This document shows, in pieces, positions 1 through 24,975 of a stretch of DNA of 64,000 bases; position 1 is the stretch's first letter, and each line of letters opens with the position of its first letter. Both the position numbers and the translations under genes were made by a program. The DNA is from Candidatus Methanogaster sp. GTDB lineage: Archaea > Halobacteriota > Methanosarcinia > Methanosarcinales > Methanogasteraceae. The stretch covers positions 19,562-83,561 of the forward strand of contig PQXF01000004.1 in the NCBI GenBank assembly GCA_003194445.1. Direction: 5' to 3'. Under the pieces are notes generated by a model that worked only from the letters and a program-made list of their open reading frames with translations, was not told where the DNA came from and ran no database searches.

Positions 1-2
1 GA

Positions 3-104
3 GTGAAATTGACAAAAGAGGCAATGAAAATCTGCGAAGAGAGAATTGAAAGATCGGGAAATTTGCCAAAGTGGGATGTCACCATCGAGCCTGCATTCGG
101 GTAA
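3..104 (+). CDS. C-terminal end of an unidentified protein, truncated by window start
   Basis: Frame open from the window edge: VKLTKEAMKICEERIERSGNLPKWDVTIEPAFG then TAA at 102-104; same frame as the next ORF. Confidence 0.35.
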   Translation: MKLTKEAMKICEERIERSGNLPKWDVTIEPAFG

Positions 105-119
105 GTTATTTATTGGGGC

Positions 120-1118
120 TTGCCTAACAGAATACGGATGGATCACGGTTTCTCGCCTCCGTTCTTTGGGGATGACCTGTCTGTTCTTGATCTGATCCGG
201 GAGCAGGGTCTGGACGTTAAGATCGGGCAGACCCGACTGGAACAGTTTCTCGAAGATGACGGGCAGGAACAGGTCGTCAATCCATTCTCGGATGATGTGA
301 TCAAACGTATGGAGGATGATACCTTCTATGGTCAGTCGTCTATTGATCTCTCTCTGGTAAAATCCCGGATGGAGGAGACAGAACACCTGATCGGTAGTTC
401 GGAGGAGGTACAGCGATTTGTCAGGAGTGGGCTTGACAGGTTCTCCTCTTCGATAACTGAAAACCCAGGGGATAACACGTTTGCAATTGAGATTCGGGAT
501 CCCCGGCTGAGTCAGGACTTGGACGATAATACCATACCCCGCGCAACGTTTGATCCGCGTAGGGGTCTTGATAACCCGGACATGGAAGTTATAGACCTGG
601 GACATCCGCTTGTGCGCAACCTCATCGAACTTGTGAAGGAGATTACATTCACCTCAAACGATACGTATGGGCGAACCGCGGTCATCAAAACATCTGAAGC
701 AAAAGCTGTTTCAGCCGTTTACACCTTTCTGGCAAGATACACAATCCACACAGAACCGATCTCTATTATGGAAGAACTTCTCACGGTGGGCGCCAGGATT
801 CATAGTGGGGAGCTGCTTGGAGATGAAGATGTCAGGGCACTGATGGCGTCAGAGCCGATCCCTGATGGGCGTACCGTGGAAGAGATGAGCCATGACCTTC
901 ATCTGGCGCTTGAAAGAGACGATATCGACGAGATCCTCTCGCAAAAGGCAAATAACCGGTGTGACTATCTTATATCGGAGAGAACCAGAGTAAAAGAAAA
1001 TCTGTTGGAATCGGGTGAGCACGAGTGGCTGGAAGACTTTGAAAAGATTGATCTTGCATCCGTAGACCTTCTCTCTGTGACTCTCTACTACCCCAAGCCA
1101 GGGGGTGGCAGCCGATGA
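120..1118 (+). CDS. Defence-island protein resembling the C-terminal region of SNF2-type (DrmD-like) helicases
   Basis: 332-aa ORF (TTG start, or ATG at 138). Segment EVIDLGHPLVRNLIELVKE...GRTAVIKTSEAKAVSAVYTFLARY resembles the region after the helicase core of defence-associated SNF2 proteins. Overlaps the methylase start by 4 nt. Confidence 0.4.
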   Translation: MPNRIRMDHGFSPPFFGDDLSVLDLIREQGLDVKIGQTRLEQFLEDDGQEQVVNPFSDDVIKRMEDDTFYGQSSIDLSLVKSRMEETEHLIGSSEEVQRFVRSGLDRFSSSITENPGDNTFAIEIRDPRLSQDLDDNTIPRATFDPRRGLDNPDMEVIDLGHPLVRNLIELVKEITFTSNDTYGRTAVIKTSEAKAVSAVYTFLARYTIHTEPISIMEELLTVGARIHSGELLGDEDVRALMASEPIPDGRTVEEMSHDLHLALERDDIDEILSQKANNRCDYLISERTRVKENLLESGEHEWLEDFEKIDLASVDLLSVTLYYPKPGGGSR

Positions 1119-4100
1119 AGACGGATCAACTATCCAATATGGCTGCACAGGGCGGGATTATTACGATAGGGTTTCTCGATCAGATGAGAGGCGAGACCGT
1201 AATTAACCCATTTGTAAAACCTCAAGCATTCGCCACATTTGGCAGTCCGGCTCCGGAGAACAAGAAAAAACTGGGCGAAAATATCTCCGAGTCCTTTTAT
1301 AGTCTGTTGGAGCGGTGGGACGCAATCTCCAACTCTTACGAAGACATGGATATCTCCGACGCACGGAAGAAATGGATCATACCACTCCTGCGGGAACTGG
1401 GGTTTGACCCCGGATTCAACCGTGAAGACGTGATGGCAAACGGGGACGAGAACCTGAAATTCAAACTCTCCCATCGTGGTTGGGTCTCCCCTGGTGCACC
1501 GATGATCCACACAGTGGCACCAAAACAGAAACTTGAAACACGACCAACTGATGGAAAAGGCAGTAAACGCAGCCCACATGATGAGATGCAGACATTCCTC
1601 AACGTAAGCAAAGACCACAAATGGGGTATCGTCACAAACGGAATCTCCTTTAGAATCCTCAGGGATTTTTTCCACACAACCACAAAGGGATACGTAGAAT
1701 TCGACATCGAGAATATCATGCGGGAACGCAGTTACAGTGATTTCCGCGCGTTCTACCGGATGGCTCACGCAAGCCGCTTTCGCGGAGGTAATGGCAATGG
1801 AGACTATCCGCTCGAACAGTTTTACAAGGAAAGCGTTACTGCAGGCGAGAAGGTTGGTCCGAACCTCCGGGGCAATGTTAAGAAAGCAATCGAGGTTTTT
1901 GGCAATGGTTTTCTCACCCTCACCCCCGAACTCACAGAGCAGATGATCGCGGACGAAGAACTCTGCAAAAAGTACTACAATGAGATCTTGAGGGTGATCT
2001 ACCGCATCCTCTTCCTCCTCTACGCTGAACAGCGGGCAATGCTTCCCACCAGAGACTCGCTCTACATCGATGAATACAGCATCACACGCCTCCGTAAAAT
2101 AGCTGAAAGCCGCAAAGGAAAGGACGATCACTGCGACCTCTGGGAAGGTCTCAAAATAACTTTCCGGATGCTTGCCGAAGGATGCAATCCACTGAACGTA
2201 TTTCCCTACAACGGAAGCCTTTTTGACAAATCTGAGATCCCCACAATCCGGGAACTTACGATAAAGAACCACGACCTTCTGGAAGCGATCAGGTGCCTCA
2301 CACTCTTTGAGGAAGATCATATACTAAAGCGGATCAACTACCTTGATCTCGATGCGGAGGAGATCGGTTCTATCTATGAGAGCTTGCTTGATTATATACC
2401 GAGAGTGCTCCCATCAGCGATGGAGATTGACGGAAGAACAATTCCAGCGAATGAATTCTTCCTTGACCCCAGAGGAAGCGCAAGAAAAACCACGGGCAGC
2501 TACTACACAGACAAACGTCTGGTGGATGAACTCATCAAAAGCGCGTTAAAACCGGTTGCCGAGAGGAAGATGGCAGAATCAGAGGATAAAGAGTCATCCA
2601 TTCTCTCGCTCAAGGTATGTGACCCGGCATGTGGGAGTGGCGCATTCCTCATTGCAGCCACCAATTATCTGGGGAAAGAGCTGGCTAAGGTACGAACCGG
2701 TCAATCCGAACCGCCTGATACGGATATACGGCGTGCCAGGCGAGACGTTTTGCAGCGCTGCATATACGGCGTTGACCAGAACCCAATGGTCGTGGAACTG
2801 GCGAAGGTATCACTCTGGATCGATGCTGCTGTAAAAGACAAGCCACTCAACTTCCTTGACCACCACATCAAATGCGGCAACTCTTTGATCGGGGCTACAC
2901 CCGAACTCATCGAACAAGGGATACCTGACGAGGCATTTAACCCTGTGGAAGGCGACGACAGGAAGGTTGCAAAGGAGATCAAAAGTAAGAACAAGAATGA
3001 GAAGAAACAGCAGACTCTGGATGAGTTTGGGTTGGAGAAAGAACCTACATGGGCTTACGAATACGAAAAACTCTCTCACGCCGAGGAAGATGACGTCGAT
3101 TCCGTCAAGTGGAAACAGGAGTGCTACAGAGCAATCGTTGAATCACCAAAAAGACAGCATGAGAAGTTAGTCGCAGACACGTGGTGCTCTGCATTCTTCT
3201 GGCAACTGAACGGGGATGCACCACCACCCACAGAAGCAACACTTCGCACGATGCAGAAGGAGATGGCTGATGGCTGCGTGGACCCTGATACACAATCCAC
3301 GATTCTCGAACTGGCGGAGGAACACAGATTCTTCCACTGGCATCTGGAGTTCCCTGATGTGTTCGAGGGAGCTGAAGGAGGATTTGACTGCGTGCTCGGG
3401 AATCCACCGTGGGATGTGTTGCAAGCCGAAGAAAAGCCCTGGTTTATCGTAAGAGATGAAAAAATCGGATTAGCCACTGGGTCAGACAGAAAAATGATTA
3501 TAAAAGAGTTAGAAAAAACGAATCCAGATCTTTATAAGGGGTGGATTTCATACAAAAAGAGTGTAGACAATTGTAACCTATTTTTAAAGCATTCAGGGCG
3601 ATTTAACCTAACTGCTAAAGGGAAATTGAATTATTACCCCCTATTCGCAGAGAATGACAAACAAATAATCAATGGTGGAGGGAGTGTTGGTATGGTAATC
3701 GCAAGCGGAATAGCAACAGACTTCTATAACCAGAACTTCTTCCAGAACGTGGTCGGGAATGGACAGCTTGTAAGCCTGTACGACTTTGAGAATAGAGAGA
3801 GAATATTTTCTGAGATTCATAGCTCGTATAAATTCTCGCTTTTGACCCTTACTGGGAAAGAGGTGCCTGTTCAAGATGCAGACTTCGCCTTCTATCTCAC
3901 CAACCCGGACCACATTCAAGAAGAAGACCGGCATTTTACCCTCACAAACGAAGAAATAGAGCTATTAAACCCCAACACAAAGACGTGCCCCATATTCCGA
4001 TCCAAGAAAGATGCTGAGCTGACCAAGAAGATATACCGGAAGCATCCGGCGTTGATAAAGGAAAATCCGGACGGAGAAGACGAGAATCCGTGGGGGATTT

Positions 4101-4237
4101 CATTCAAGCAAGGACTATTCAACATGACCAGCGACTCCGCGCTCTTCAAGAACAAGGATCAACTGGCAGGCATGGGCTTTGAGCTGGACGGCAACATTTT
4201 CCGCAGGGGGCGAAGAAACCTATTTACCTTTGTATGA
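1115..4237 (+). CDS. Eco57I-type N6-adenine DNA methyltransferase, N-terminal 1040 aa (frameshifted gene)
   Basis: Motif I VCDPACGSGAFLIAATNYLG, motif IV VLGNPPWDVLQAEEKPW, TTGSYYTDKRLVDELI. Reading frame lost just before the conserved LPLYEGKMIWQFNHR segment found in the +1 frame. Confidence 0.85.
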   Translation: MKTDQLSNMAAQGGIITIGFLDQMRGETVINPFVKPQAFATFGSPAPENKKKLGENISESFYSLLERWDAISNSYEDMDISDARKKWIIPLLRELGFDPGFNREDVMANGDENLKFKLSHRGWVSPGAPMIHTVAPKQKLETRPTDGKGSKRSPHDEMQTFLNVSKDHKWGIVTNGISFRILRDFFHTTTKGYVEFDIENIMRERSYSDFRAFYRMAHASRFRGGNGNGDYPLEQFYKESVTAGEKVGPNLRGNVKKAIEVFGNGFLTLTPELTEQMIADEELCKKYYNEILRVIYRILFLLYAEQRAMLPTRDSLYIDEYSITRLRKIAESRKGKDDHCDLWEGLKITFRMLAEGCNPLNVFPYNGSLFDKSEIPTIRELTIKNHDLLEAIRCLTLFEEDHILKRINYLDLDAEEIGSIYESLLDYIPRVLPSAMEIDGRTIPANEFFLDPRGSARKTTGSYYTDKRLVDELIKSALKPVAERKMAESEDKESSILSLKVCDPACGSGAFLIAATNYLGKELAKVRTGQSEPPDTDIRRARRDVLQRCIYGVDQNPMVVELAKVSLWIDAAVKDKPLNFLDHHIKCGNSLIGATPELIEQGIPDEAFNPVEGDDRKVAKEIKSKNKNEKKQQTLDEFGLEKEPTWAYEYEKLSHAEEDDVDSVKWKQECYRAIVESPKRQHEKLVADTWCSAFFWQLNGDAPPPTEATLRTMQKEMADGCVDPDTQSTILELAEEHRFFHWHLEFPDVFEGAEGGFDCVLGNPPWDVLQAEEKPWFIVRDEKIGLATGSDRKMIIKELEKTNPDLYKGWISYKKSVDNCNLFLKHSGRFNLTAKGKLNYYPLFAENDKQIINGGGSVGMVIASGIATDFYNQNFFQNVVGNGQLVSLYDFENRERIFSEIHSSYKFSLLTLTGKEVPVQDADFAFYLTNPDHIQEEDRHFTLTNEEIELLNPNTKTCPIFRSKKDAELTKKIYRKHPALIKENPDGEDENPWGISFKQGLFNMTSDSALFKNKDQLAGMGFELDGNIFRRGRRNLFTFV

Positions 4238-5003
4238 AGGGAAAATGATATGGCAATTCAATCATCGAGCAAGTTCCATAGATTACAAAGGAAGGATTGT
4301 ACCAGGGCGTCATGATGTTATTGAAACAGACGAATATCAATTAATCGATCCAAATTTCTCTCCAATTCCACGATTTTGGGTTTATGATAAAGAAATTAAT
4401 AATAGAATAAAAAATAATGTGAAATATCTTTTTGGTTTTAGAGATATAACAAACGCAAGTAGCGAAAGAACATCAATATTTTCATTTATCCCACTTACAG
4501 GAGTTGGGCATCAAATGCCTCTAATTTTTACAGAGAAAAAAGAGCCTATGGTTAAAGCTATTCTTGCTACTATTTTTAATTCATTTGTATTTGACTTTAT
4601 TTCTCGGCAAAAATTAGGAGGGACTCATATGACTTACTTTATCCTAAAACAACTTCCAGTAGTTTTATTCGAATCAATTGACATTCTATATATTGATAAA
4701 ATTATAGATATTGTTTTGAAACTGAGTTATACTGCATCGGATATTGTTTATTTTGCCCATGACCTCGGTTACAACGGTCCCCCTTTCAGGTGGGACCCGG
4801 AAGAACGGGCATACCTGATGGCAGAACTGGACGCTATCGTTGCCCATCTCTATGGCGTAACCCATGATGAACTGGACTACATTCTTGAGACCTTTCCCAT
4901 CGTCAAAAAGAAGGATATCGCGAAATATGGCGAGTACAGAACAAAAAGACTGATTTTTGAATATTATAATAATTATAAAGACCTGCTGGAGGCAACTCAA
5001 TGA
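4179..5003 (+). CDS. C-terminal part of the same Eco57I-type methyltransferase (specificity/TRD region)
   Basis: EETYLPLYEGKMIWQFNHR...FRDITNASSERTSIFSFIPLTGVGHQMPL...PFRWDPEERAYLMAELDAIVAHLYG is the usual continuation of this family. Confidence 0.8.
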   Translation: MSWTATFSAGGEETYLPLYEGKMIWQFNHRASSIDYKGRIVPGRHDVIETDEYQLIDPNFSPIPRFWVYDKEINNRIKNNVKYLFGFRDITNASSERTSIFSFIPLTGVGHQMPLIFTEKKEPMVKAILATIFNSFVFDFISRQKLGGTHMTYFILKQLPVVLFESIDILYIDKIIDIVLKLSYTASDIVYFAHDLGYNGPPFRWDPEERAYLMAELDAIVAHLYGVTHDELDYILETFPIVKKKDIAKYGEYRTKRLIFEYYNNYKDLLEATQ

Positions 5004-8000
5004 ACCCCTTTGAAACCCTATCCCACATCCAGGACATGTACAGAACTTATGTCCACACATTCCAGAAGATCAAGAATCCCGTAATAAAAGACTGGATGCT
5101 AGAAAGAATGTCTGATGGTACTCTGCTGTGGCGGGATCCGCACATCCAGTTGAACCGTCGTTTTGAGAGGGGCGAATCGCTTGAGGAGATGGTCGCTTCA
5201 GGACTTCTTCATCCCGGAACGCTTTCGGTATTCTCAGCAACCGATTCATCAGGTCAGTTGACAGGAACTCCGATCGTTCCTCATAAGCACCAGAGCGACT
5301 CCATCAAAGCGATATTAAACGAAGATGCGAACACCATAATCACAACAGGCACGAGTTCTGGAAAGAGCTTCTGCTTTGGAATCCCTATTGTGAGCGAGTG
5401 TTTCAGGATGCGGGATGAGGGTCTGGGCGGGATAAAAGCCATCATCATCTATCCAATGAATGCTCTTGCCAACAGCCAGTATGAGGATTTTGCCAGGAGG
5501 TTGCATGGTAGTGGTTTGAGGGTTGCTCTTTATACCGGGGACACGCCGAATAATCATGAGGGCGCGCTGGCTAATCTCAAGATAACTACAGGCAGGGACA
5601 CTCCGTATGATAGTGAGGTCTTGTCCAGGGAGGAGATACAGAGCAATCCTCCTGATATCCTCATGACGAATTATGTGATGCTTGAGTTGTTGCTCACCAG
5701 GCTCGACGATCATGATAAGCTGTTTCCCGAAGAACACCGGGGCAGGCTCAGGTTCCTTGTTCTTGATGAGATTCATACCTATAGCGGGAAGAGGGGTGCG
5801 GATGTTGCCTGCCTCATCAGGAGGTTGAAGAGCAGAACCATGACCACTGAGTCGTTGCGTTGCATCGGGACAAGTGCCACGGTTCAGAGTGCGAAGGGTG
5901 AGGATGCAGGCGTTGTGATTGCAGGGTTTGCAGCAGAACTTTTCGCAGAGGAGTTTTCTAAAGAGCATGTGGTAGGGGAGACGTATCATATCCCAGCACG
6001 TCCTGAGCCCGGACCGCTGCCAGACAGGATGCTGATCACTCCTGAGATGGTCGAGGGTTTTGACGGGTCAATTGAGAGGGGGACGGTTCTGGTAGAGGCA
6101 TTGACCGGGGTGGCTTTGACGGATTACGAGAAGACTCCTGAGAATCTCGGGAGACTACTAGCCTCTCAGCAGACCGTCTGGTTCCTGGAGGATAAAGCAT
6201 CCATCGATTCTTATTCTATACAGGACATGTCAGTTGACTACAGGGATGCGTATCGTCCCGGTTGTGACAGTGGTGGGTGTGCAATGGAATTAAAAGCGGC
6301 TCTATTGGCTGGTACTGTTGGAACGGTCAGGATATATGATCAGGATCAGCCGCTTTTTGTTCCCAAACTGCATAATTTCTTCTCTCAGGGACGGACTATC
6401 AGCAGTTGTCTCACTTCGGAGAGTCCTCATCTGAATGACCGTGGTGAGGTCGTATGTCCGACATGCAAAAAAGAGGAGCGGAAGCGGATCACGTTTCCAT
6501 TAAATTTCTGCCGCTCATGTGGTCAGGAGTTCTATGGTGTGACAATACTGGATGATAACACCCTGCTGCCGAGAGATATTGACACTCTTGCTGTGGAGGG
6601 AAGGGATGCCTACATTTACACATTGAAATATTCATCTGATGAAGTGCCAATTCCAGAGGAATGGATGGGGCGCAATAAAACGATCCGTGCTGACCGGAAG
6701 GGACATGAGCCTCAGGAAAGGATATACTGTCCCGAATGCAATTCACTGGACCCGACGTGTGATCATGAAGGGAAGATCAAGGTATATGAGCTGGCATCGC
6801 CGTTTCTGTTCTGCCCATCCTGTGGCGTGAAATACGACAAACGTTCCAAGGAATTCAACAAGCTCTTCACATTTGGTTCAATAGGGCGAAGCACAGGGAC
6901 TGATGTGCTTGTTTCGAGCATCATGAGCAAGCTGGATGATAGTGAGAAGAAGATTATAGCGTTCTCGGATAACAGACAGGATACGGCTTTGCAGGCGTCT
7001 CACATGAACAACCTGCAAAGGCGCATCCATTTCCGACAGGCTGTGTATCGGGCGCTTGTGGATGGCAGGTACACTGATGCAGATGGTGGAGTGCTCGATA
7101 TTACCCAATCAGGTATCCGGATTTTTGATGCGATGAAACATTATGATGTATTGCCTGATTATGCTAAAGAGCAGGGCAAATTTGTCCAGACCACAAGAGC
7201 AGACGACTCTTACAAGGAATACCTCCAGTACAACGCTGTTCTCGATCTGGGGGCTCCGGTGATGAAGAACCAGCAGAATCTGGAGGATGTGGGGCTTTTA
7301 AAAGTATTGTACAATGGTCTGGATGGTTTGGCGGATGCAGATGAGGTATGGAGAACGATTCCTGAAACGAAATCCATGACTTCAGATGAACGATATGATT
7401 ATCTTACTGGATTCATGGACATATTCAGGAAACAGCGGGCTATCGAATATAAACACATCATCAGAAACGATCTCTTCGAAAATGAGGTTCGTTCAAACAT
7501 CACTGAAGAGTCCCAATTTGATATCAGTGGTGCCCCGGGCAACATAGTTGGATATGGGGATGATATCAAAAAATGGAACCAGAGATACAAGATTTTGCGT
7601 TTAACATACTCACGCAGCCGTCTGATGACATGGACCAAGAGAGTGCTCGGCGTGAGTTCTGAGGCTGCAAAAGAGATTGTTCCGGCTGTAGTAGAAATAT
7701 TGGCTGAAAAGGAATACGGAGGATGGCTTGTTAAACATCCTGTACCTGCGTATCGAGGAAAGGGGATCCTTGGCTCGATATACATGCTCAATACTGAAAG
7801 AATTCAGTTGCAGGCGATTGAAAACACCAGTAAGCATAAGGTATGCCAGAAATGTGCGTCAGTGTATCATTATCGTGTCTTAGACTTATGCACCGGGAGT
7901 TTATGCGGAGGTCTCGGGGATCAGGACTTTAAAGATAATTATTTCCGCCAGATGTATGCAAAACCCTTCTCCGAATCTTCTTCTGTGGTGGCGGAGGAAC

Positions 8001-10258
8001 ACAGTGGACAGATAGATGGAATAACAAGGAAGAATATTGAGGCAAGATTCCGGGATCCGAAAGAACCGTTGAACGTACTCGTTTGCACTCCAACCATGGA
8101 ACTCGGAATTGATATCGGGGACCTGACCGCCGTTTACATGCGTAATGTGCCGCCGAGTCCCAGTAATTATGCACAGAGAGCAGGGAGAGCCGGACGCAAA
8201 AGCCAGCCTGCCATCACTACCACATTCTGCGGTGTTGGTGCGGCAAGAGGACCTCACGACCAGTATTTCTATAGATTCCCGGAAAAGATCATATCCGGCA
8301 AGATAACGCCTCCAAGGTTTATGCTGGATAATCAGCAACTCCTAAAGGCGCACATCAATTCAACGATACTGGAAACAATTAAAATCAAGTTTCCAAAGGG
8401 TTTCGGATATATTCTGAGCACTGATGAGTTAGGATATCCGATGTCATCAGATTTTAAAGACGATCTGATAGATGTAATCTCAGAAAATAGGGGTGGAGTA
8501 ATCGAAAGAATCCAGCAGACATTCGGTAACGAAAAGTCAATGTATACATGGTTTACTGACGAATTTGTGACTGATTGCATCGATTGTTTTGTAGATAACC
8601 TTGAAGAAAGTCTCACTTATTGGAGAACCGAATACGATCTGCTCCAAAGAGAGCACAAGGATCTTGCCGCACGTGAGCGGTCAAATGGGTTACCCCCAGC
8701 CGATCACAGCAGAATGGGCGCGATAGGTAATAAATTAAAAGCTATGAGAGAAGGGGAGATGGATTTTTATCCCTACAGGTATCTTGGAGCCCGTGGTTTT
8801 CTGCCCAACTATGGTTTCCCGACTTCAACGGTTATCCTTTCCCTCCATGATTCAGAAGATGAAATTGCCAGGGATAATGCTCTGGCATTGTCTGAATTTG
8901 CCCCGGGAAATACGATATACTACAGAAGAAATACATACAATGTAACGTATGCAAAACCCAGAAGGGAGAACCATAAACCAGTACTGGAGCATGTACTCAT
9001 CTGCCCCAACTGTTCGACGATATATCATGGACATGAGAGGGCGATTGCTCAATCTGCCTGCCCCGAGTGTGGGCAATCGCTAATAGGTCATCACCCGAAT
9101 CCCAATGGAATGCAGATGCCCGATATGCATGCAGTAAAAAGGAGCCGCATCACCTCAGATGAGGAGGAAAGACGCCGCCTCGGATATCAGTTATCCACAC
9201 ACTACGAGGTAGGAAACGTAACCGAGGGTGTGCGAATAATCGGATCGGATATTGAGATCACATTGAACTACGAACACAACGGAAAAATAATTCATCTGAA
9301 CCGCGGAACCGGAAAAAGTAAGGGTGATGGACCAGGACTGGAGAATGGTTTCGTTCTCTGTTCGGCGTGTAATCGCTGGCTTTTCGGTGAGAAAATTGAG
9401 AAACACATCGGAGAAGAGGGGACCTGTCCCAAAAATGCAACACGGGACGATATAATAAGGGATATCTGGTTGTTTACCATCGGAACTCATGATGTTGCAG
9501 TTCTAAAGCTCCCGCTACCAGAGTATGTAGACGCTCACAAAACCGAAGAGTTCTACACCTCATTTAAGGAAGCAATAATCAGGGGTATGCAGATAGCTCT
9601 GAATCTGGATGAAAGCGAAGTCGGTGGATTAGTAGTATCTGAAGAAAACGGGGACGACTGGAAAATTATTCTGTATGAAAAGGCTGAAGGAGGAACCGGC
9701 GCCATAAAAGCCTTACTTGAACCCCCCCGATTTGAAGAAATGGTCAGGCGTGCACGTGAACTACTCCATGAGTTCGATGAAGATCCAGGCTGCAGCTCCG
9801 CTTGCTACGAATGCCTGTTAAGTTTCTATAATCAACGTGAACACGAACTTCTGGATAGACACATAGTTTTACCGGCACTCCGCGCCTTAGAGTCGGTAAG
9901 AATTGAGCGAATAGAAGATCAATGGGGTGCGAGGGGGCTACAAGAGCTTATACCCCAATGCGATTCTGGGTTCGAGAAGAAAGTATTGGAAGAATTTTCC
10001 AATCAAAGGATATCACTGCCCAATTCCGCCCAAAAAATCATCTACGATGGTGACATACCGATAGCAAAACCCGACTTCTTCTATGATGTGCGGAATATAG
10101 CGGTTTTTGTTGATGGACCACCCCATGACAAGGACTATGTCAAAAAAGACGACGAAATTAAACGCAATAAGCTTAGAGAGATTGGGTACCGGGTGTTTGC
10201 GATAAGATATGGTAATTTCGAAGAAGATGTTGAACGGCTTAAACGTGTCCTGGTGTGA
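5000..10258 (+). CDS. DEAD/DEAH helicase with DUF1998 and C-terminal Vsr/DUF559-like nuclease domain
   Basis: Walker A TTGTSSGKS, DEIH box, QRAGRAGRK motif VI, several CxxC zinc knuckles, DUF1998-type YEKAEGGTGAIKALL...CSSACYECLLSFYNQ, C-terminal FEKKVLEEF...PDFFYDVRNIAVFVDGPPHD...KLREIGYRVFAIRYG. Start overlaps the methylase stop (ATGA-type). Confidence 0.85.
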   Translation: MNPFETLSHIQDMYRTYVHTFQKIKNPVIKDWMLERMSDGTLLWRDPHIQLNRRFERGESLEEMVASGLLHPGTLSVFSATDSSGQLTGTPIVPHKHQSDSIKAILNEDANTIITTGTSSGKSFCFGIPIVSECFRMRDEGLGGIKAIIIYPMNALANSQYEDFARRLHGSGLRVALYTGDTPNNHEGALANLKITTGRDTPYDSEVLSREEIQSNPPDILMTNYVMLELLLTRLDDHDKLFPEEHRGRLRFLVLDEIHTYSGKRGADVACLIRRLKSRTMTTESLRCIGTSATVQSAKGEDAGVVIAGFAAELFAEEFSKEHVVGETYHIPARPEPGPLPDRMLITPEMVEGFDGSIERGTVLVEALTGVALTDYEKTPENLGRLLASQQTVWFLEDKASIDSYSIQDMSVDYRDAYRPGCDSGGCAMELKAALLAGTVGTVRIYDQDQPLFVPKLHNFFSQGRTISSCLTSESPHLNDRGEVVCPTCKKEERKRITFPLNFCRSCGQEFYGVTILDDNTLLPRDIDTLAVEGRDAYIYTLKYSSDEVPIPEEWMGRNKTIRADRKGHEPQERIYCPECNSLDPTCDHEGKIKVYELASPFLFCPSCGVKYDKRSKEFNKLFTFGSIGRSTGTDVLVSSIMSKLDDSEKKIIAFSDNRQDTALQASHMNNLQRRIHFRQAVYRALVDGRYTDADGGVLDITQSGIRIFDAMKHYDVLPDYAKEQGKFVQTTRADDSYKEYLQYNAVLDLGAPVMKNQQNLEDVGLLKVLYNGLDGLADADEVWRTIPETKSMTSDERYDYLTGFMDIFRKQRAIEYKHIIRNDLFENEVRSNITEESQFDISGAPGNIVGYGDDIKKWNQRYKILRLTYSRSRLMTWTKRVLGVSSEAAKEIVPAVVEILAEKEYGGWLVKHPVPAYRGKGILGSIYMLNTERIQLQAIENTSKHKVCQKCASVYHYRVLDLCTGSLCGGLGDQDFKDNYFRQMYAKPFSESSSVVAEEHSGQIDGITRKNIEARFRDPKEPLNVLVCTPTMELGIDIGDLTAVYMRNVPPSPSNYAQRAGRAGRKSQPAITTTFCGVGAARGPHDQYFYRFPEKIISGKITPPRFMLDNQQLLKAHINSTILETIKIKFPKGFGYILSTDELGYPMSSDFKDDLIDVISENRGGVIERIQQTFGNEKSMYTWFTDEFVTDCIDCFVDNLEESLTYWRTEYDLLQREHKDLAARERSNGLPPADHSRMGAIGNKLKAMREGEMDFYPYRYLGARGFLPNYGFPTSTVILSLHDSEDEIARDNALALSEFAPGNTIYYRRNTYNVTYAKPRRENHKPVLEHVLICPNCSTIYHGHERAIAQSACPECGQSLIGHHPNPNGMQMPDMHAVKRSRITSDEEERRRLGYQLSTHYEVGNVTEGVRIIGSDIEITLNYEHNGKIIHLNRGTGKSKGDGPGLENGFVLCSACNRWLFGEKIEKHIGEEGTCPKNATRDDIIRDIWLFTIGTHDVAVLKLPLPEYVDAHKTEEFYTSFKEAIIRGMQIALNLDESEVGGLVVSEENGDDWKIILYEKAEGGTGAIKALLEPPRFEEMVRRARELLHEFDEDPGCSSACYECLLSFYNQREHELLDRHIVLPALRALESVRIERIEDQWGARGLQELIPQCDSGFEKKVLEEFSNQRISLPNSAQKIIYDGDIPIAKPDFFYDVRNIAVFVDGPPHDKDYVKKDDEIKRNKLREIGYRVFAIRYGNFEEDVERLKRVLV

Positions 10259-10269
10259 AAAGATGATAT

Positions 10270-11680
10270 GTTGTGAGCCTTACCAATTATGCGTTTGAGT
10301 TTATCCCCATCTTCATCGATGTCTTTGAGTATCTGCTTAACACCAAACGATTTACCAGAGCCAGGTGGACCGAAGACCGCAAAGCACAGGGGTTGTTTGG
10401 GTTCGGGATTGGCAAGAAACTCGATGATAAGCTCCCGGATTGCACTGTAGCTTTCTATCTCGGCACGATCGATGGTAGTCAATTCGCCAAACACACCCAC
10501 CGGCACACCTTCCAAACCTTTGTCGCCTCTGATGACGATCTCCTCTGCCACGCGCTGCCATGTATTACGGGTCTTTTGATAAAGGATCCGCCAGAAGTTG
10601 GGGTCAGGATCCTTCAGATCCTCGGGACGCTCGATGGGGCAGGAAGTATAGGCATGGTTGGCGCTGCCCTCCAAGAGTATCTGCTCGGGCGGGTATTCGA
10701 TTCCAGTGTTAGTCTTAACGTATCCGGCTTCAAGAAGCGCACGCGAATAGCCGAGCCCCTGCTCGATTCCAGCCTTTATGCCATGTATGCCGTCTTTTGC
10801 CAGATGCCTAACAATCGTTGCAGTGAAGATCGAGGTGAGTCCCATCATATGCCCGTCAATCCGGGGCAGCGAACCCGCCCTCAAGCGAGGATGGATCGAA
10901 AATAAGTGTAGCATTAGCATTCTCTCCACCGCGATGAAGGATATCGCCGTCAGTACCAAAGAGCACTATGAGGTACGGGCACTGCTGCAACTCCTTGAGT
11001 TCATCCAATCTATGTAGTTGAAACACAGAGTCTCTGGCAGTGCGCTCCCACGAGAGTGACTTACTGATATGCACTCCACTGGTCTGGCGGAGATCGCTGG
11101 CGTTGATAACCATAATCCGGTTATCCGGACAATTCTTACTCACTTCATCCCATAGCGCACCCGTGATGAGAGGGCCACTCATCTTGTAGACCGCGATGGA
11201 ATCTTCCATGTGCTGCAGGGCACTATGCCAGGCATCTATGTGATCTCAAAACCCGTTACCCGCATCGTCAAGCACGATGATATCAGCATCCTCGAAGTCA
11301 TGTTCTGGCGGCAGTGACTGAGGCGAACCGCTTCCGGAACCGATATATCCAAATGATTTGCTGATGCGCAAAACCTTCTCCTCTCCGCCCCGAACCTGGA
11401 ACCTGTCCAGCATCACATTGGAGTGAATCACCTTCTCAGGTGGAATATCCCTCAGTGATTCTGACAACGGCGGTCCGGTCACTCTGGCTGGGATCCCTTC
11501 TACTTCAAGCGACTGCTTGGTGAACTTGGTCAATAATGCCGCACCGTCCGGGAGTGCGTCTGCATGTGATGAAGTGTGCTGGCGCCAGTTCCCGCCTTCG
11601 TCACCGGTATCGACAGGGTACATAAACCAATCAACGGTCACGTCTCCGGCAACCACAATCACAGGTTCTTTTTCCGACAT
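10270..11680 (-). pseudogene. ATPase-like protein, degraded (in-frame TGA, frameshift, 3' truncation)
   Basis: MSEKEPVIVVAGDVTVDWF...DIIVLDDAGNGF*DHIDAWHSALQHMEDS (TGA at 11246-11248), frame change near 10860-10870, then LIEFLANPEPKQPLCFAVFGPPGSGKSFGVKQIL ending at the helicase gene. Confidence 0.65.
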
Positions 11681-12117: not shown

Positions 12118-12255
12118 ATGAAACAAGAAAAGATCACTCTTTCGCAGCTGGAAGGGTTTCTGTTTAAATCCGCCGATATCCTCCGTGGTAAAATAGATGC
12201 TTCGGAGTTCAAGGGACAAATCGATGATCTCCTGTCACATCAAGAACGTGTTTGA
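12118..12255 (+). pseudogene. N-terminal remnant of type I restriction-modification HsdM
   Basis: MKQEKITLSQLEGFLFKSADILRGKIDASEFK matches the typical HsdM N-terminus, then switches to unrelated sequence near 12212. Confidence 0.65.
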
Positions 12256-12598
12256 AGAAGGCGAACTGGTTCCCGACTCAGTTGTTGCAAATTTTGCAAC
12301 AACCGCGGCAGACGGCAAAACCTGCCGGGTCGATCATTATAACCTTGATGCCATTATCTCTGTTGGCTACCGGGTAAAATCACATCGGGGCACGCAATTC
12401 CGCATCTGGGCAACAAAGCGGCTGCGCGAATACATTATCAAAGGCTTTGCCCTCGGCGACGACTGGCTCAAGCATGCAGGCGGTGGCAACTACTTCGAAG
12501 AGTTGCTGGCATGCATCCGGGGCATAATCATCCGGATACAAGACCTTCTCACCGGCAGGGTGCGTGTCATGCCTTTGTTAGAGGATGAAACGCCATGA
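12216..12598 (+). pseudogene. RhuM-family protein, truncated copy
   Basis: [69 protein letters not shown] parallels the intact RhuM immediately downstream; lacks N-terminus. Confidence 0.75.
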
Positions 12599-13632
12599 TC
12601 GAAAAGGATAAAAAGTTGCAAATCCGCAACAGCGCGGCAGAGTTTTTGATTTTCACCGCACAAAGCGGCGATGATGGAATTGAAGTGCGCTATGAGGATG
12701 AAACCATCTGGTTGACTCAGAAACTGATTGCCGCTCTGTTTGATGTAACCGTTCCAACCGTCAATGAGCACTTGAAAAATATCTTTGCAGGCGGGGAGTT
12801 GCAGCAGGATTCAGTTATTCGGAAATTCCTAACAACTGCCGCGGATGGCAAGAATTACAATACGAATTTCTATAACATTGATGCCATCATTTCCGTGGGT
12901 TACCGGGTCAATTCCAAACGTGCCACCCAATTTCGGCAGTGGGCAACCCAGGTGCTGAGAGAATTCGCAATTAAAGGCTATGTGCTTGACCGGAAACGCA
13001 TGGAAAACGGTTCTTTTCTAGGGGAAGACTATTTTGAACGGTTGTTGGAAGAAATCCGGGAGATTAGACTGAGCGAGCGCCGGTTTTATCAGAAGATCAC
13101 TGACATTTACGCAACAAGCGTGGACTACAACAAGGATGCACCAACGACCCGGGAATTCTTTGCCAGGGTTCAAAACAAGTTGCATTTCGCGATCCATGGA
13201 CATACCGCGGCTGAATTGATTATACAGCGCGCCGACAGCAACGAAGAGCGGATGGGGCTCACTTCGTGGGAACGCAGTCCGGGTGGTAAAATCCTGAAGA
13301 CCGATGTTTCAGTCGCAAAAAACTATCTTTCTCAGAATGAACTCGAATCGCTTGGACGGATTGTTAACTCTTATCTGGAGCTGGCTGAAGAACGAGCCAG
13401 ACGAAAAATCCCCATGACCATGGAGGATTGGGCGAAGCGGCTTGATCTTTTTCTGGAATTTGATGATCGAGATATTTTGCGAGATAGTGGCAAGGTTACG
13501 GCACAAATCGCCAAAGAGTTTGCCGAGAGTGAATTTGAAAAATATCGCATTGTGCAGGATCGTCTGTTTGAAAGCGATTTTGACCGGGAGATAAAACGCA
13601 TTCAGGGGAAACCCCGGGAGGCGAACGCATGA
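12595..13632 (+). CDS. RhuM family protein
   Basis: Full-length: [35 protein letters not shown]...[39 protein letters not shown]. Confidence 0.85.
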
Positions 13633-13775
13633 CCTCCAAACTCCCCATAAATCTTGATGACCTACTGCACCGACGAAAGGTCGAAGGCGAGCGGATCGAG
13701 TACAAGGTGGGGCGGAATCCGGATCCGATCATGCGCACTCTCTCTCGCCTTTGTAAACGACTTCGAGAACCCTGG
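13629..13775 (+). pseudogene. AlbA_2 (Schlafen-like) ATP-binding regulator, N-terminal remnant
   Basis: [31 protein letters not shown] followed, after a frame change, by [12 protein letters not shown]. Confidence 0.55.
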
Positions 13776-13779
13776 CGGA

Positions 13780-14420
13780 GGGATAAGCTGATGGAGCTTG
13801 GTATGGACAAGGATGAAGCAAAGAGCTTCTCTGCAATCTCGGAATCAAACGTCCTTCTCGATATGACCAAAGGTGTCCAGTATCTCCGCGAGACCATGGA
13901 ACTGATCATCAAGGGATTCGAGGAGGCGACCACTGCCGAACCGATGTCAAGAGAGCCGTGTCAGGGCCTCAAGCTGATGCTGGTCGATGTCAAGCTCCAT
14001 GAGGATGCTGTGCACCGCGGTCCCGCGCAGGTGATCCCGGCAGTCAGGCAGGCAATTCAGGCAGCGATACTGATGGCAGACGTGACACTGCTCGAACCGT
14101 TCCAGAAGGTATTCATCCAGGTGCCGCAGGACCACATGGGCGGCGCGATATCAGAGATCCAAGGGAGGAGAGGCGCGATACTGGACATGACGCAGGAAGG
14201 CGATGTCACAGACATCGAAGCGAAGACTCCGGTCGCAGAGTTGTTCGGGTTTGCAGGCGATCTCAGGTCTGCAACCGAAGGAAGAGCGCTCTGGAGCACC
14301 GAGTTTGCAGGTTTTGAGCCGCTTCCAAAGAACCTGCTTTCGGATATCGTTTCGCAGATCAGGACTCGGAAGGGGTTGAAGCCGGGGATTCCAAAGGCAA
14401 GCGACTTTGTGAGTCAGTAG
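13780..14420 (+). pseudogene. Archaeal elongation factor 2 (aEF-2), C-terminal remnant
   Basis: [26 protein letters not shown]...[46 protein letters not shown] is the canonical aEF-2 domain IV/V end; GTPase domain absent. Confidence 0.88.
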
Positions 14421-14704
14421 AGGTTATAGATAGCTTAGGTTTGTGGACGCGCTGGGTGTCAGGATCGGCAAGACCGAGGAAGGCATCCGGTGGCGTCTTT
14501 GGGTGTGTGGTTGGTGCGGGGTAGGTGGGTCGATTGAATCATGGTGCGGTGCGATTGTTGTGATCAGGTTTTGTGAGATTGCGCTCTTCGTCACGCGATC
14601 ATAGTAGATAGGGGCATCACGACGCAAACATCGAATATGATGATGAGCGAATACCCACATATATTATGCCGATGTCAATCACCAATCACATTCGATAATT
14701 TTAA

Positions 14705-16039: not shown

Positions 16040-16382
16040 ATGATGCGGCTCCGTTTGACCGCAGAGACCTGCTTGGCTGCCACAGGGTTGTTTTGCACAG
16101 GTGCAGAGGACTTGTAGTTATTGCATATTAAGATAGTGATGACTCAGAGTGGATTCTTGCGTCTTAACCGAACACCAATGTAGCGAGCTTATCTTCGTGT
16201 GGTACTCTTATGATCTCGGTGTATGTCGGATCGATCGGATCAGTTTTTAGGATAGTGTCTCGGCTGCCACTTAATTTGAAGCGGTTACCAATTTATCACC
16301 GCGGAGAACGCAAAGTTTCGAGACTGCGTAAGTCCTCTGCGTGGCTTTGCGCACTCTGCAGGATTTCCTCAGTCGCATCGTT

Positions 16383-22059: not shown

Positions 22060-24975
22060 CTACGCTCGTGGGTATGTTTTTCGAATTTCCTCTACTGAAT
22101 ATGCTTTGGATTTCTCAGAATGAGTTTCTTCTTCGGCAGACAAAGGTGGTGTACGCTCACGTTTCTTACAATAGTTAACAATTTCTTTTAAAAACTGATC
22201 TCCGTATTTCTTTAATTTTATTTCACGAATACCATTTATATTTTGGAGACTTGACATATCCCGGGGAACTATGGTAGCCATTGCCGCCAAAATAGAGTCG
22301 TGGAAAATGATTATAGACGGTACATTGGTTTCCTCAGCGATTTTTTTCCTCAAATTCACTAAAATTTCAAATAGATCGCGATCAAAGTCTTCACCAACAT
22401 CCTCGTGCGCCACTTGAACTGCTTCTGGTTTTTTCGATAGAATACCTTCTTTTTTGACGGAGAAAGGCAACACGCTTTCACATCCCCCGTACTTTTGTGA
22501 CCTCTCTCCGATTGTCGAATTTTCTGGTTTCATAGCCTCCTGTCTGAGCTGCTTCCGAACCCTATCTATTGCAGCCTCGACATCGACTGGTTCGTCAGAC
22601 TCTTCTTGTGCTGGTGCGGGGGGTGAGGCAGACAATTTTTGAGATTTTGGTGGTGCATAAGGCGGTTTACCCAGCAGTTCGTGAAGTATCATTATCGCCG
22701 CATGTTTGTCCAGCGGTTCGTTGTGATTGCCACATTTAGGCGACTGTATGCAACTTGGGCACCCGTCATGGCATGGACAGCCTTCAACGGCTTTCAGAGT
22801 AACCTCGAGAATATCGGTTATTATTTCATATCCTCTTTCTGCATAACCCACACCACCACGATGTCCGTCATATACGAATATCCCCGACTTTCCGCTGAGG
22901 TCGTTGTGGTCGGGCGTTGCTATGCCGCCCACGTCATTCCGGTCCGCTAAAAGACGCAGCGGGTACATCGCGATCATGGCGTGCTCGATAGCGTGGATGC
23001 CACCTGCAAAATCAAGATCATATTCTTCAACAAGGTTCGTAAATCTGTCGGGAAGTTCGATCCAGAGGGCTACAGTTTCAAGAGAGAGTTTCGGCATATC
23101 TAAAAGGCATGCTTCCAGCACAATATCCCTAAAATACTTGTATTTCTTGTACTCGGTCACCTGCTCTACCACCTCAACGTCTCCAAGACCAACCTTCGCA
23201 TCCCTGCATGATGGCAGGGTTTTCTCCGTATATTTCTCTTTTATAGATATATCAGAAGTGAATGATGCTTTAGTATAATATTCTGCTTTTGTTTCTTCGG
23301 CATGTATCTCTTTCTTGTCGTGGTCAAGCTTGATGACCCGATATGGTGTGCCCATGTGCAGGTATATGGCACCCTCAAAAGTTTCCTTGAATGCCATCGC
23401 CTTTTCAATCCCCTTCTCGATTGGAATACGCTGCCCACCGCTGAATGTGAATATTGAGTAAGTATCCTGACTTATACCGCGGATGGAGACCTGCATATGG
23501 GGGTTTGGGTTCACTGCTGACTTGCTTTCATCTCCTGTTAAGAGCCCTTCTGCCTCAAGCATCTCGATCGTCCTTGTTGACCCGCTTCCAAAGTATTTTT
23601 CATCTTCTTCTGTGAATGGTATCTCATTTGCCGCGCACAGGATATGTCCCGCTTGAATATACGGGTTTGATACGTTGAGTACCGCCTCTTCGCTACTCGT
23701 GCCGAAGAACTCCCCTGGATATCGCATATAGTACTGATCAAGAGCGTTTAAACCTGCCACCAGCACAACAACACTCTCTTTATCACCCCTTCCAGCTCGC
23801 CCTGCCTGCTGTCTTGTATTCATGATGGTGCCTGGATATTTATCGATGATACATGCGTCCAGCCCGCCGATATTTATACCAAGTTCAAGTGCGTTGGTTG
23901 ATATAACTCCGCGGAGAGTTCCATTAGACAGCTTCTTCTCGATGCCCTCGCGTTCTTTGCCGAAATACCCCGCTCTGTAGGGGGAAATTTTGTCCACCAA
24001 GTCATGCAATTCTTTTTCACGAAGGCTGCGCTTAGCTGCTACATACATTCGTTCCACGCCTTGTCTCGACCGGGTAAAGGCAATTGTCTGAAGTCCGTAC
24101 AATATGAACGCGCTGAAAAGTTTATGCGACTCAGTGAAACTGCTTTTCCTGACGTTAAAACCCCACTCGTTGATATATCTGGATGGGTTCCAGAAGATAA
24201 ATTTCTGAGGACCTCTGCCAGAGCCGTCCCTGTTAATTACAGTAACTTTTCTGCCAATCAGAGCACCTGTGTGCTCGCCGGGGTTTCCTATGGTGGCTGA
24301 GCAGCAGATATACTTCGGATGCGCACCATAATACGCACATACGCGATTAAGTCTTCTCAGGAGATTCGCCATGTTGCTGCCCATTACACCCCGGTAATAA
24401 TGGCTCTCGTCTACTACAATATACTGCAAGTTTGAAAGAAATCTCTTCCAGATACGATGCCATTGCAGAAAACTCAGGTGGATCATCTCGGGGTTTGTAA
24501 GAATGATTTGTGGATTTCCAGATCTTACTGCCTTTTTTTCATCACTGCTCATCGTGCCGATGTACTTGTTAATTTCCGAATCTATGCCAAGTTCATCTCT
24601 GAATTCGACGAAATTTTTATACTGATCATTGACCAGCGCATTAAGCGGAGCGATATAAAGAGCGGTTGCATTCGGATCATTCATGACCGCCTCAAAGATT
24701 GGGAGCATGTATGCGAGTGACTTTCCACTGGCCGTACTCGTCACCAAAACAATATCCTCCCCTGCTCTGACATGCTCGACGGCTTCTACCTGATGGCTAT
24801 ATAGTTGTTCTATCCCCATCTGGCTTAATGCGAAGTTTATCAAAGGCTTTAGTTCAATTGATGCGTGTTCCGGATCCTTAAAAGATGTATCTTCCATGTG
24901 TACAATCTGACCCTCATAGCTATTAGATGATTTGATCTCTTCGATTATATTGGATATCGGCATTTTTCCCACCAT
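22060..24975 (-). CDS. Hrq1/YprA-like DEAD/DEAH helicase with DUF1998/MZB and C-terminal HRDC domain
   Basis: TSTASGKSLAYMLPI, DESHYYRGV, ALELGINIGGLD, QQAGRAGRGD, CPCHDGCPSCIQSPKCGNHNEPLDK, HRDC-like LVNLRKKIAEETNVPSIIIFHDSILAAMATIVPRDMSSL. Confidence 0.88.
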   Translation of the reverse strand: MVGKMPISNIIEEIKSSNSYEGQIVHMEDTSFKDPEHASIELKPLINFALSQMGIEQLYSHQVEAVEHVRAGEDIVLVTSTASGKSLAYMLPIFEAVMNDPNATALYIAPLNALVNDQYKNFVEFRDELGIDSEINKYIGTMSSDEKKAVRSGNPQIILTNPEMIHLSFLQWHRIWKRFLSNLQYIVVDESHYYRGVMGSNMANLLRRLNRVCAYYGAHPKYICCSATIGNPGEHTGALIGRKVTVINRDGSGRGPQKFIFWNPSRYINEWGFNVRKSSFTESHKLFSAFILYGLQTIAFTRSRQGVERMYVAAKRSLREKELHDLVDKISPYRAGYFGKEREGIEKKLSNGTLRGVISTNALELGINIGGLDACIIDKYPGTIMNTRQQAGRAGRGDKESVVVLVAGLNALDQYYMRYPGEFFGTSSEEAVLNVSNPYIQAGHILCAANEIPFTEEDEKYFGSGSTRTIEMLEAEGLLTGDESKSAVNPNPHMQVSIRGISQDTYSIFTFSGGQRIPIEKGIEKAMAFKETFEGAIYLHMGTPYRVIKLDHDKKEIHAEETKAEYYTKASFTSDISIKEKYTEKTLPSCRDAKVGLGDVEVVEQVTEYKKYKYFRDIVLEACLLDMPKLSLETVALWIELPDRFTNLVEEYDLDFAGGIHAIEHAMIAMYPLRLLADRNDVGGIATPDHNDLSGKSGIFVYDGHRGGVGYAERGYEIITDILEVTLKAVEGCPCHDGCPSCIQSPKCGNHNEPLDKHAAIMILHELLGKPPYAPPKSQKLSASPPAPAQEESDEPVDVEAAIDRVRKQLRQEAMKPENSTIGERSQKYGGCESVLPFSVKKEGILSKKPEAVQVAHEDVGEDFDRDLFEILVNLRKKIAEETNVPSIIIFHDSILAAMATIVPRDMSSLQNINGIREIKLKKYGDQFLKEIVNYCKKRERTPPLSAEEETHSEKSKAYSVEEIRKTYPRA

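Follow-up and report, generated by a model that had tools for sequence, protein, structure and literature searches.

The window analysed here is a stretch of 64,000 nucleotides, bases 19562-83561 of contig C114 (166.6 kb) in an assembly of 3.6 Mb (G000) from a Methanosarcinales-type genome, and the sequence upstream of its bp 1 is readable on the same contig. Its beginning holds four forward-strand ORFs, 120-1118 (332 aa), 1115-4237 (1040 aa), 4179-5003 (274 aa) and 5000-10258 (1752 aa), and the tight gene overlaps that a first-pass annotation had reported are found at 1115-1118 and 5000-5003 (ATGA type, 4 nt each). The features, named after the components to which they are assigned below, are as follows (window coordinates unless stated otherwise).

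C114 16130-18055 (6569-8494 of the extract L004), upstream of the window: N-terminal 641 aa of ArmA with the motor domains (PADLOC DrmD 8e-106)
1-124, plus strand: right end of an ISAzo13-family element (PF07592 transposase, copies in the genome, inverted repeats, TAA duplication at 125-127)
120-1118, plus strand: C-terminal third of ArmA, a BrxHII/DrmD-like Swi2/Snf2 helicase (weak PADLOC DrmD match, 4e-5; collinear with the ArmA of locus L014)
1115-4237, plus strand: first part of ArmB, a PglX/DrmMI-like adenine methylase (Pfam Eco57I 3.6e-19, PADLOC DrmMI 5e-96, motifs DPACGSGAF and NPPW)
4179-5003, plus strand: last part of ArmB, ~250 aa, in another frame (both parts are one ORF in 25/27 homologous loci)
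5000-10258, plus strand: ArmC, an intact 1752-aa YprA-family helicase-nuclease, DruE-like (DruE 2e-122, full-length relatives, tree)
5285-5887, plus strand: ArmC RecA1 (DEAD), residues 96-296, with TGTSSGKS and DEIH motifs (PF00270 1.1e-23)
7982-8200, plus strand: ArmC RecA2 (Helicase_C), residues 995-1067 (PF00271 6.7e-13)
9566-9817, plus strand: ArmC MZB/DUF1998 zinc-binding domain, residues 1523-1606 (PF09369 7.7e-11)
9947-10255, plus strand: predicted Vsr/DUF559-type nuclease of ArmC, residues ~1650-1752 (alignment, Pfam, AlphaFold2, Foldseek and profile matches)
13775-14497, plus strand: displaced EF-2 3' end, a 725-bp direct repeat (94%) of the intact EF-2 3' end; setting, outside the system

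The 332-aa ORF had been described as an SNF2-associated-looking protein. Its DrmD/BrxHII-like helicase nature stands, but it is not a whole gene: it is the C-terminal third of an ArmA of ~966 aa that is cut by an insertion sequence. Retrieval of the upstream sequence, a check proposed in the first-pass annotation, uncovered the N-terminal part of ArmA and an ISAzo13-family element just upstream of bp 1. A 641-aa ORF with SNF2 and Helicase_C domains, which also matches BrxHII (3e-71), is followed by an ISAzo13-type transposase fragment (PF07592, 3e-6), 730 N and the 332-aa ORF. The whole element, the ends of which were mapped against its other copies, lies at C114 18040-19685 (L004 8479-10124); it is ~1.65 kb long with the 730 N inside, terminates in inverted repeats (GGCAA.../...TTGCC) and has a TAA target duplication on both sides. 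When the IS-free site was rebuilt in a script at the duplicated TAA, a single open frame of 966 aa resulted, which aligns end to end, junction included, with the ArmA of L014 (973 aa), a locus of a Methanoperedens relative. Because the flanks rejoin in frame and align to this protein, we assign the 332-aa ORF to the C-terminal third of ArmA. The element thus splits armA between the motor and the C-terminal domain, and a stop codon and ~1.6 kb separate the two halves. The interruption is to be read with the caveat that the N gap falls within the element; a scaffolding error across this gap was considered and rejected, since the flanks correspond, in collinear order, to the two halves of one gene, with a common TAA duplication and in-frame rejoining. 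Many near-identical copies of the element are found across many contigs of the genome, which suggests recent activity, and the only other armA-like match in the genome is a 34%-identical gene on contig C103.

The second gene, armB, is broken as well. Besides the Eco57I and DrmMI matches listed above, the 1040-aa ORF matches PglX (4e-9) and type IIG methylase models, and it shares 49-50% identity with the ArmB of the Methanoperedens relative (L014/L060). For the 274-aa ORF at 4179, the match is to the C-terminal end of those same type IIG models. That it is a separate gene was rejected, since both parts form one ORF in 25 of the 27 homologues. The frameshift lies near a G tract at 4206-4210; it is most likely a mutation, an assembly error being possible. 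A genome-wide search found no second armB. The Eco57I-type methylase of the first-pass annotation is upheld in kind, although its two ORFs, of 1040 and 274 aa, belong to a single frameshifted methylase gene.

The third gene, armC, is whole; two of the three genes of the operon are damaged. The profile search suggested earlier for the 1752-aa protein gave DruE as a far better match (2e-122) than DrmA, which is hit only weakly (2e-14), together with PF09369 and, at the C-terminus, DUF559/MTES_1575. The description of a DUF1998 helicase with zinc knuckles was accurate, given the DEAD, MZB and DruE matches, and full-length relatives of 83, 54, 54 and 47% identity retain both helicase motifs and CxxC pairs. 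By its dN/dS against the 83% relative (L006), 0.15 for the whole gene and 0.25 for the nuclease domain, armC was under purifying selection in the past. Two neighbours on the minus strand were also noted: an apparently broken gene (10135-11680), in several frames and with a weak Torsin/AAA match, abuts the 3' end of armC as a decayed pseudogene, and a second MZB helicase of 971 aa (22060-24975) has a Hrq1-type winged helix and an HRDC domain and is probably a repair helicase unrelated to the operon.

The last ~130 aa of this protein had been thought to look like a nuclease, and its terminal ~110 residues are indeed Vsr/DUF559-like by profile, predicted fold and conserved motif residues. In an alignment of ArmC C-termini, E1659, Q1678, D1692 (xDFxY), D1705-G and H1709 are conserved in nearly all ARMADA I relatives; in the ArmC of Acidithiobacillus caldus the motif residues are lost. 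Pfam finds MTES_1575 and DUF559, weakly for the window protein alone, DUF559 being over the cut-off in two relatives. The AlphaFold2 model (32-sequence alignment, pLDDT 87) has the alpha-beta-beta-beta-alpha-beta order of the PD-(D/E)xK core, so that the structure prediction, also proposed beforehand, came out on the side of a nuclease. Among nucleases, Foldseek ranks I-Bth0305I first (probability 0.98, E 0.024), a protein with a Vsr-like fold; the Foldseek matches are weak as a set, the best E-values being 0.018-0.024 and none below 0.001. Profile matches comprise 3r3p (I-Bth0305I, 0.003) and the Vsr structures 1vsr, 1odg and 1cw0 (0.04-0.05). Because no Foldseek E-value falls below 0.001, the assignment leans jointly on profile matches, conserved residues and topology; each line is modest, and together they support the prediction of a Vsr/DUF559-type PD-(D/E)xK nuclease.

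A scan of species genomes yielded 77 homologous loci. Where flanks are available, loci above ~35% identity (archaea, Chloroflexi and others) have the order A-B-C, and a second set at ~30% identity has the order C-A-B. The Methanoperedens relative L014/L060 possesses an intact A-B-C operon (973, 1336 and 1740 aa). Among annotated records, a Natrinema plasmid is A-B-C, Thermus A-x-B-x-C, and Caballeronia, A. caldus and Deinococcus radiodurans MP1 are C-A-B. The neighbourhood check thus finds BrxHII-like, PglX-like and YprA-like genes together in archaeal and other loci. In a helicase tree of 46 proteins the A-B-C loci, the window among them, group together (SH-aLRT 96) as sister to the C-A-B loci (100), which are bacterial; the nearest neighbours of the window protein are L006, L050 and L014, and it falls outside the E. 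coli ARMADA II and the Druantia III-type proteins. Its placement within the A-B-C group is firm on these sequences; the E. coli rows sit on long branches and their exact place is unsure. Two observations stand apart. In Methanosarcina UBA293 (L016/L057) a 1783-aa ArmC homologue, near an ORF that is SIR2-like by eye, has no detectable armA or armB on the stretch examined around it, and is possibly a stand-alone ArmC. The C-A-B locus on the A. caldus megaplasmid (L119), the ArmC of which has lost its nuclease residues, also has an insertion of the IS21 type, lying between its armC and armA genes.

ARMADA, a recently described anti-virus system akin to DISARM, is defined by Bell et al. 2025 (PMC12458937) as the combination of a helicase of the YprA type with partners that resemble BrxHII and PglX. 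In their account the YprA gene usually comes first in Type I, the order BrxHII-PglX-YprA occurring in many archaea and cyanobacteria, and the YprA protein of Types I and II ends in a predicted active Vsr-type nuclease. The window presents a BrxHII/RapA-like gene, a PglX-like gene and a single-chain YprA-like helicase with MZB/DUF1998 and a predicted C-terminal Vsr-type nuclease, in the BrxHII-PglX-YprA order reported for many archaea and cyanobacteria, and its helicase is placed in the tree apart from ARMADA II and Druantia; it differs from the published type by the ISAzo13-type element in armA and the frameshift in armB. Because content, order and nuclease type agree with the published definition, we propose, with a probability of about 0.9, that the locus is an archaeal ARMADA Type I operon of the order armA-armB-armC. 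The Type I label of the A-B-C clade rests on content and order, since the 46 proteins of the tree do not include the reference protein of Bell et al., WP_108720193. The Type II systems of E. coli ATCC 8739 and NCTC 12900 have the same armA-armB-armC order and component families, but their ArmC is longer (2113 aa in ATCC 8739 versus 1752 aa) and occupies a deep separate branch, and no ArmD (a GajB-like helicase/RelE-like fusion) was found among the ORFs searched downstream of armC.

The first-pass annotation had proposed a compact DISARM-related or separate restriction system. Class 1 DISARM resembles the locus in having DrmD-like and DrmMI-like genes and a YprA-family helicase with DUF1998, but there DrmA and DrmB (DUF1998) are separate genes and DrmC is a separate PLD nuclease, whereas in the window one 1752-aa chain holds helicase, DUF1998 and a predicted Vsr/DUF559 nuclease, and the helicase is nearer DruE than DrmA. 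That no PLD gene follows had been correctly noted: contig C114 has no PLDc_2 match, the only such matches in the genome being on other contigs. DISARM proper was rejected on the fusion, the absence of DrmC and the affinity to DruE. A variant of DISARM produced by fusion of DrmA, DrmB and a new nuclease would explain why the SNF2-like and methylase genes match the DrmD and DrmMI models, two components common to DISARM and ARMADA; we regard it as highly improbable, given the DruE and DrmA scores and the lack of a drmC-type PLD gene nearby. It is also opposed by the relatives of full length, which are helicases of a single chain whose loci fit ARMADA I, and by the tree of YprA proteins published by Bell et al., where ARMADA groups with Druantia and not with DISARM (PMC12458937).

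Druantia itself would account for the DruE match of the large helicase, the YprA family being common to both, and Druantia Type III (DruH-DruE) likewise has a single-chain YprA helicase with a C-terminal nuclease. It has, however, PLD nuclease domains and a DruH partner, and the window has neither: there is no DruH match in L004 (operon to most of armC), and none was recognised among the downstream ORFs searched. The window helicase lies outside the DruE clade of the 46-protein tree, the Druantia III-type loci of relatives (L017, L018) and of E. coli grouping apart; moreover, its partners, one BrxHII-like and one PglX-like, are those of ARMADA, and PADLOC 2023 is older than the ARMADA definition. 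On tree placement and the missing DruH we rejected Druantia, which we consider to have a very slender chance of being correct. The earlier proposal of a restriction-like system related to DISARM, in which one chain unites the helicase, DUF1998 and a nuclease other than PLD, holds, except that the system is not a new one. The gene set and the fusion are those already named ARMADA Type I (PMC12458937), a case that the first-pass annotation had itself listed as refuting its reading; what this locus adds is an archaeal member that looks degraded by an IS and a frameshift.

Beyond what was observed at the locus (the genes and their order, the place in the tree, the conserved nuclease residues, the inserted IS and the frameshift), the working of an intact system can be extrapolated from experiments on ARMADA Type II (PMC12458937) and from DruE of Druantia III (PMC13192584). 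The experiments in the sections cited concern Type II, in E. coli, rather than Type I; there, protection depends on each of the four genes, on the Walker motifs of the helicases ArmA, ArmC and ArmD and on the NPPW motif of ArmB, and it is non-abortive (PMC12458937). DruE, a related helicase-nuclease, engages replication intermediates containing ssDNA (PMC13192584). By analogy, ArmB would most likely methylate adenine in host DNA as a self mark, and ArmA, a Swi2/Snf2 translocase, and ArmC would engage incoming DNA that lacks the mark. ArmC, a YprA-type SF2 helicase, would load on single-stranded or replicating DNA and open it, and its putative C-terminal Vsr/DUF559-type PD-(D/E)xK nuclease would cut the foreign DNA, a direct attack on DNA and not cell suicide. 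We infer self-marking by methylation and cleavage of foreign DNA by ArmC from these two relatives.

Because the IS splits armA and the frameshift removes the last ~250 residues of ArmB, the copy in this genome is probably switched off and its function lost. It is unlikely that the system is still active, with the split ArmA working as two polypeptides and ArmB made by programmed frameshifting or really intact. The N-terminal part of ArmA has both motor domains, so that a residual function of the separate halves is conceivable, the C-terminal part retains a start codon and an open frame, and armC bears the signature of purifying selection, though this is a measure of history; armB is, however, in one frame in nearly all homologues, and the stop codon and the bulk of the IS intervene between the ArmA halves. 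Such residual activity would oppose only the loss of function, and not the ARMADA Type I identity.

The operon lies between two EF-2 sequences. The intact EF-2 gene (C114 13055-15244) upstream of armA and the displaced 3' end mark off an island of ~18 kb that contains the ARMADA operon and RhuM-type genes (C114 13055-33336; window 13629-14497), in which no integrase was recognised. At 12197-13632 the window has a truncated and a full-length gene of the RhuM family, and the full-length one is a strong match to the PADLOC candidate-defence model PDC-S05. A second EF-2 3' copy occurs only in this genome among the 17 searched in its family, and in relatives other genes follow EF-2. Because in one of them (G006) the sequence beyond the shared EF-2 end continues into a stretch matching window 16222-16363, the displaced copy appears to be the original EF-2 3' end. 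A congener (G005, locus L125, G005:C31 703-8518) has HmaC-, HmaB- and DarG-like genes directly after EF-2; its EF-2 flank also has short sequences in common with the island edges at C114 15324-15500 and 31334-31597. Since the duplicated EF-2 end brackets the ARMADA island and the flank in the congener has these genes, the EF-2 3' flank looks like a defence hotspot. We put forward, tentatively and as somewhat less than an even chance, that the 3' end of aEF-2 is an integration hotspot for defence islands in the genus: an unrecognised mobile element with its own EF-2 3' end would have inserted there and restored EF-2, bringing ARMADA and the RhuM-type candidate defence gene as cargo, so that the old 3' end came to lie 18 kb downstream. 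Thaumarchaeal casposons insert in the 3' part of aEF-2 (PMC4046053); a casposon as the carrier is unsupported here, since the ORFs of the interval that were examined included no recognisable cas1 or polB.

The locus is thus an archaeal ARMADA Type I operon, probably caught while being lost through an IS and a frameshift, with its large helicase-nuclease gene still whole. Its relatives extend to Methanoperedens, Methanoculleus, Bathyarchaeota, Heimdallarchaeota and Lokiarchaeota bins, a Natrinema plasmid, Thermus and the D. radiodurans plasmid MP1, a breadth that offers culturable candidates for testing Type I ARMADA. The EF-2 flank, as a possible site of defence islands, may offer a clue to how such systems are transferred among archaea.
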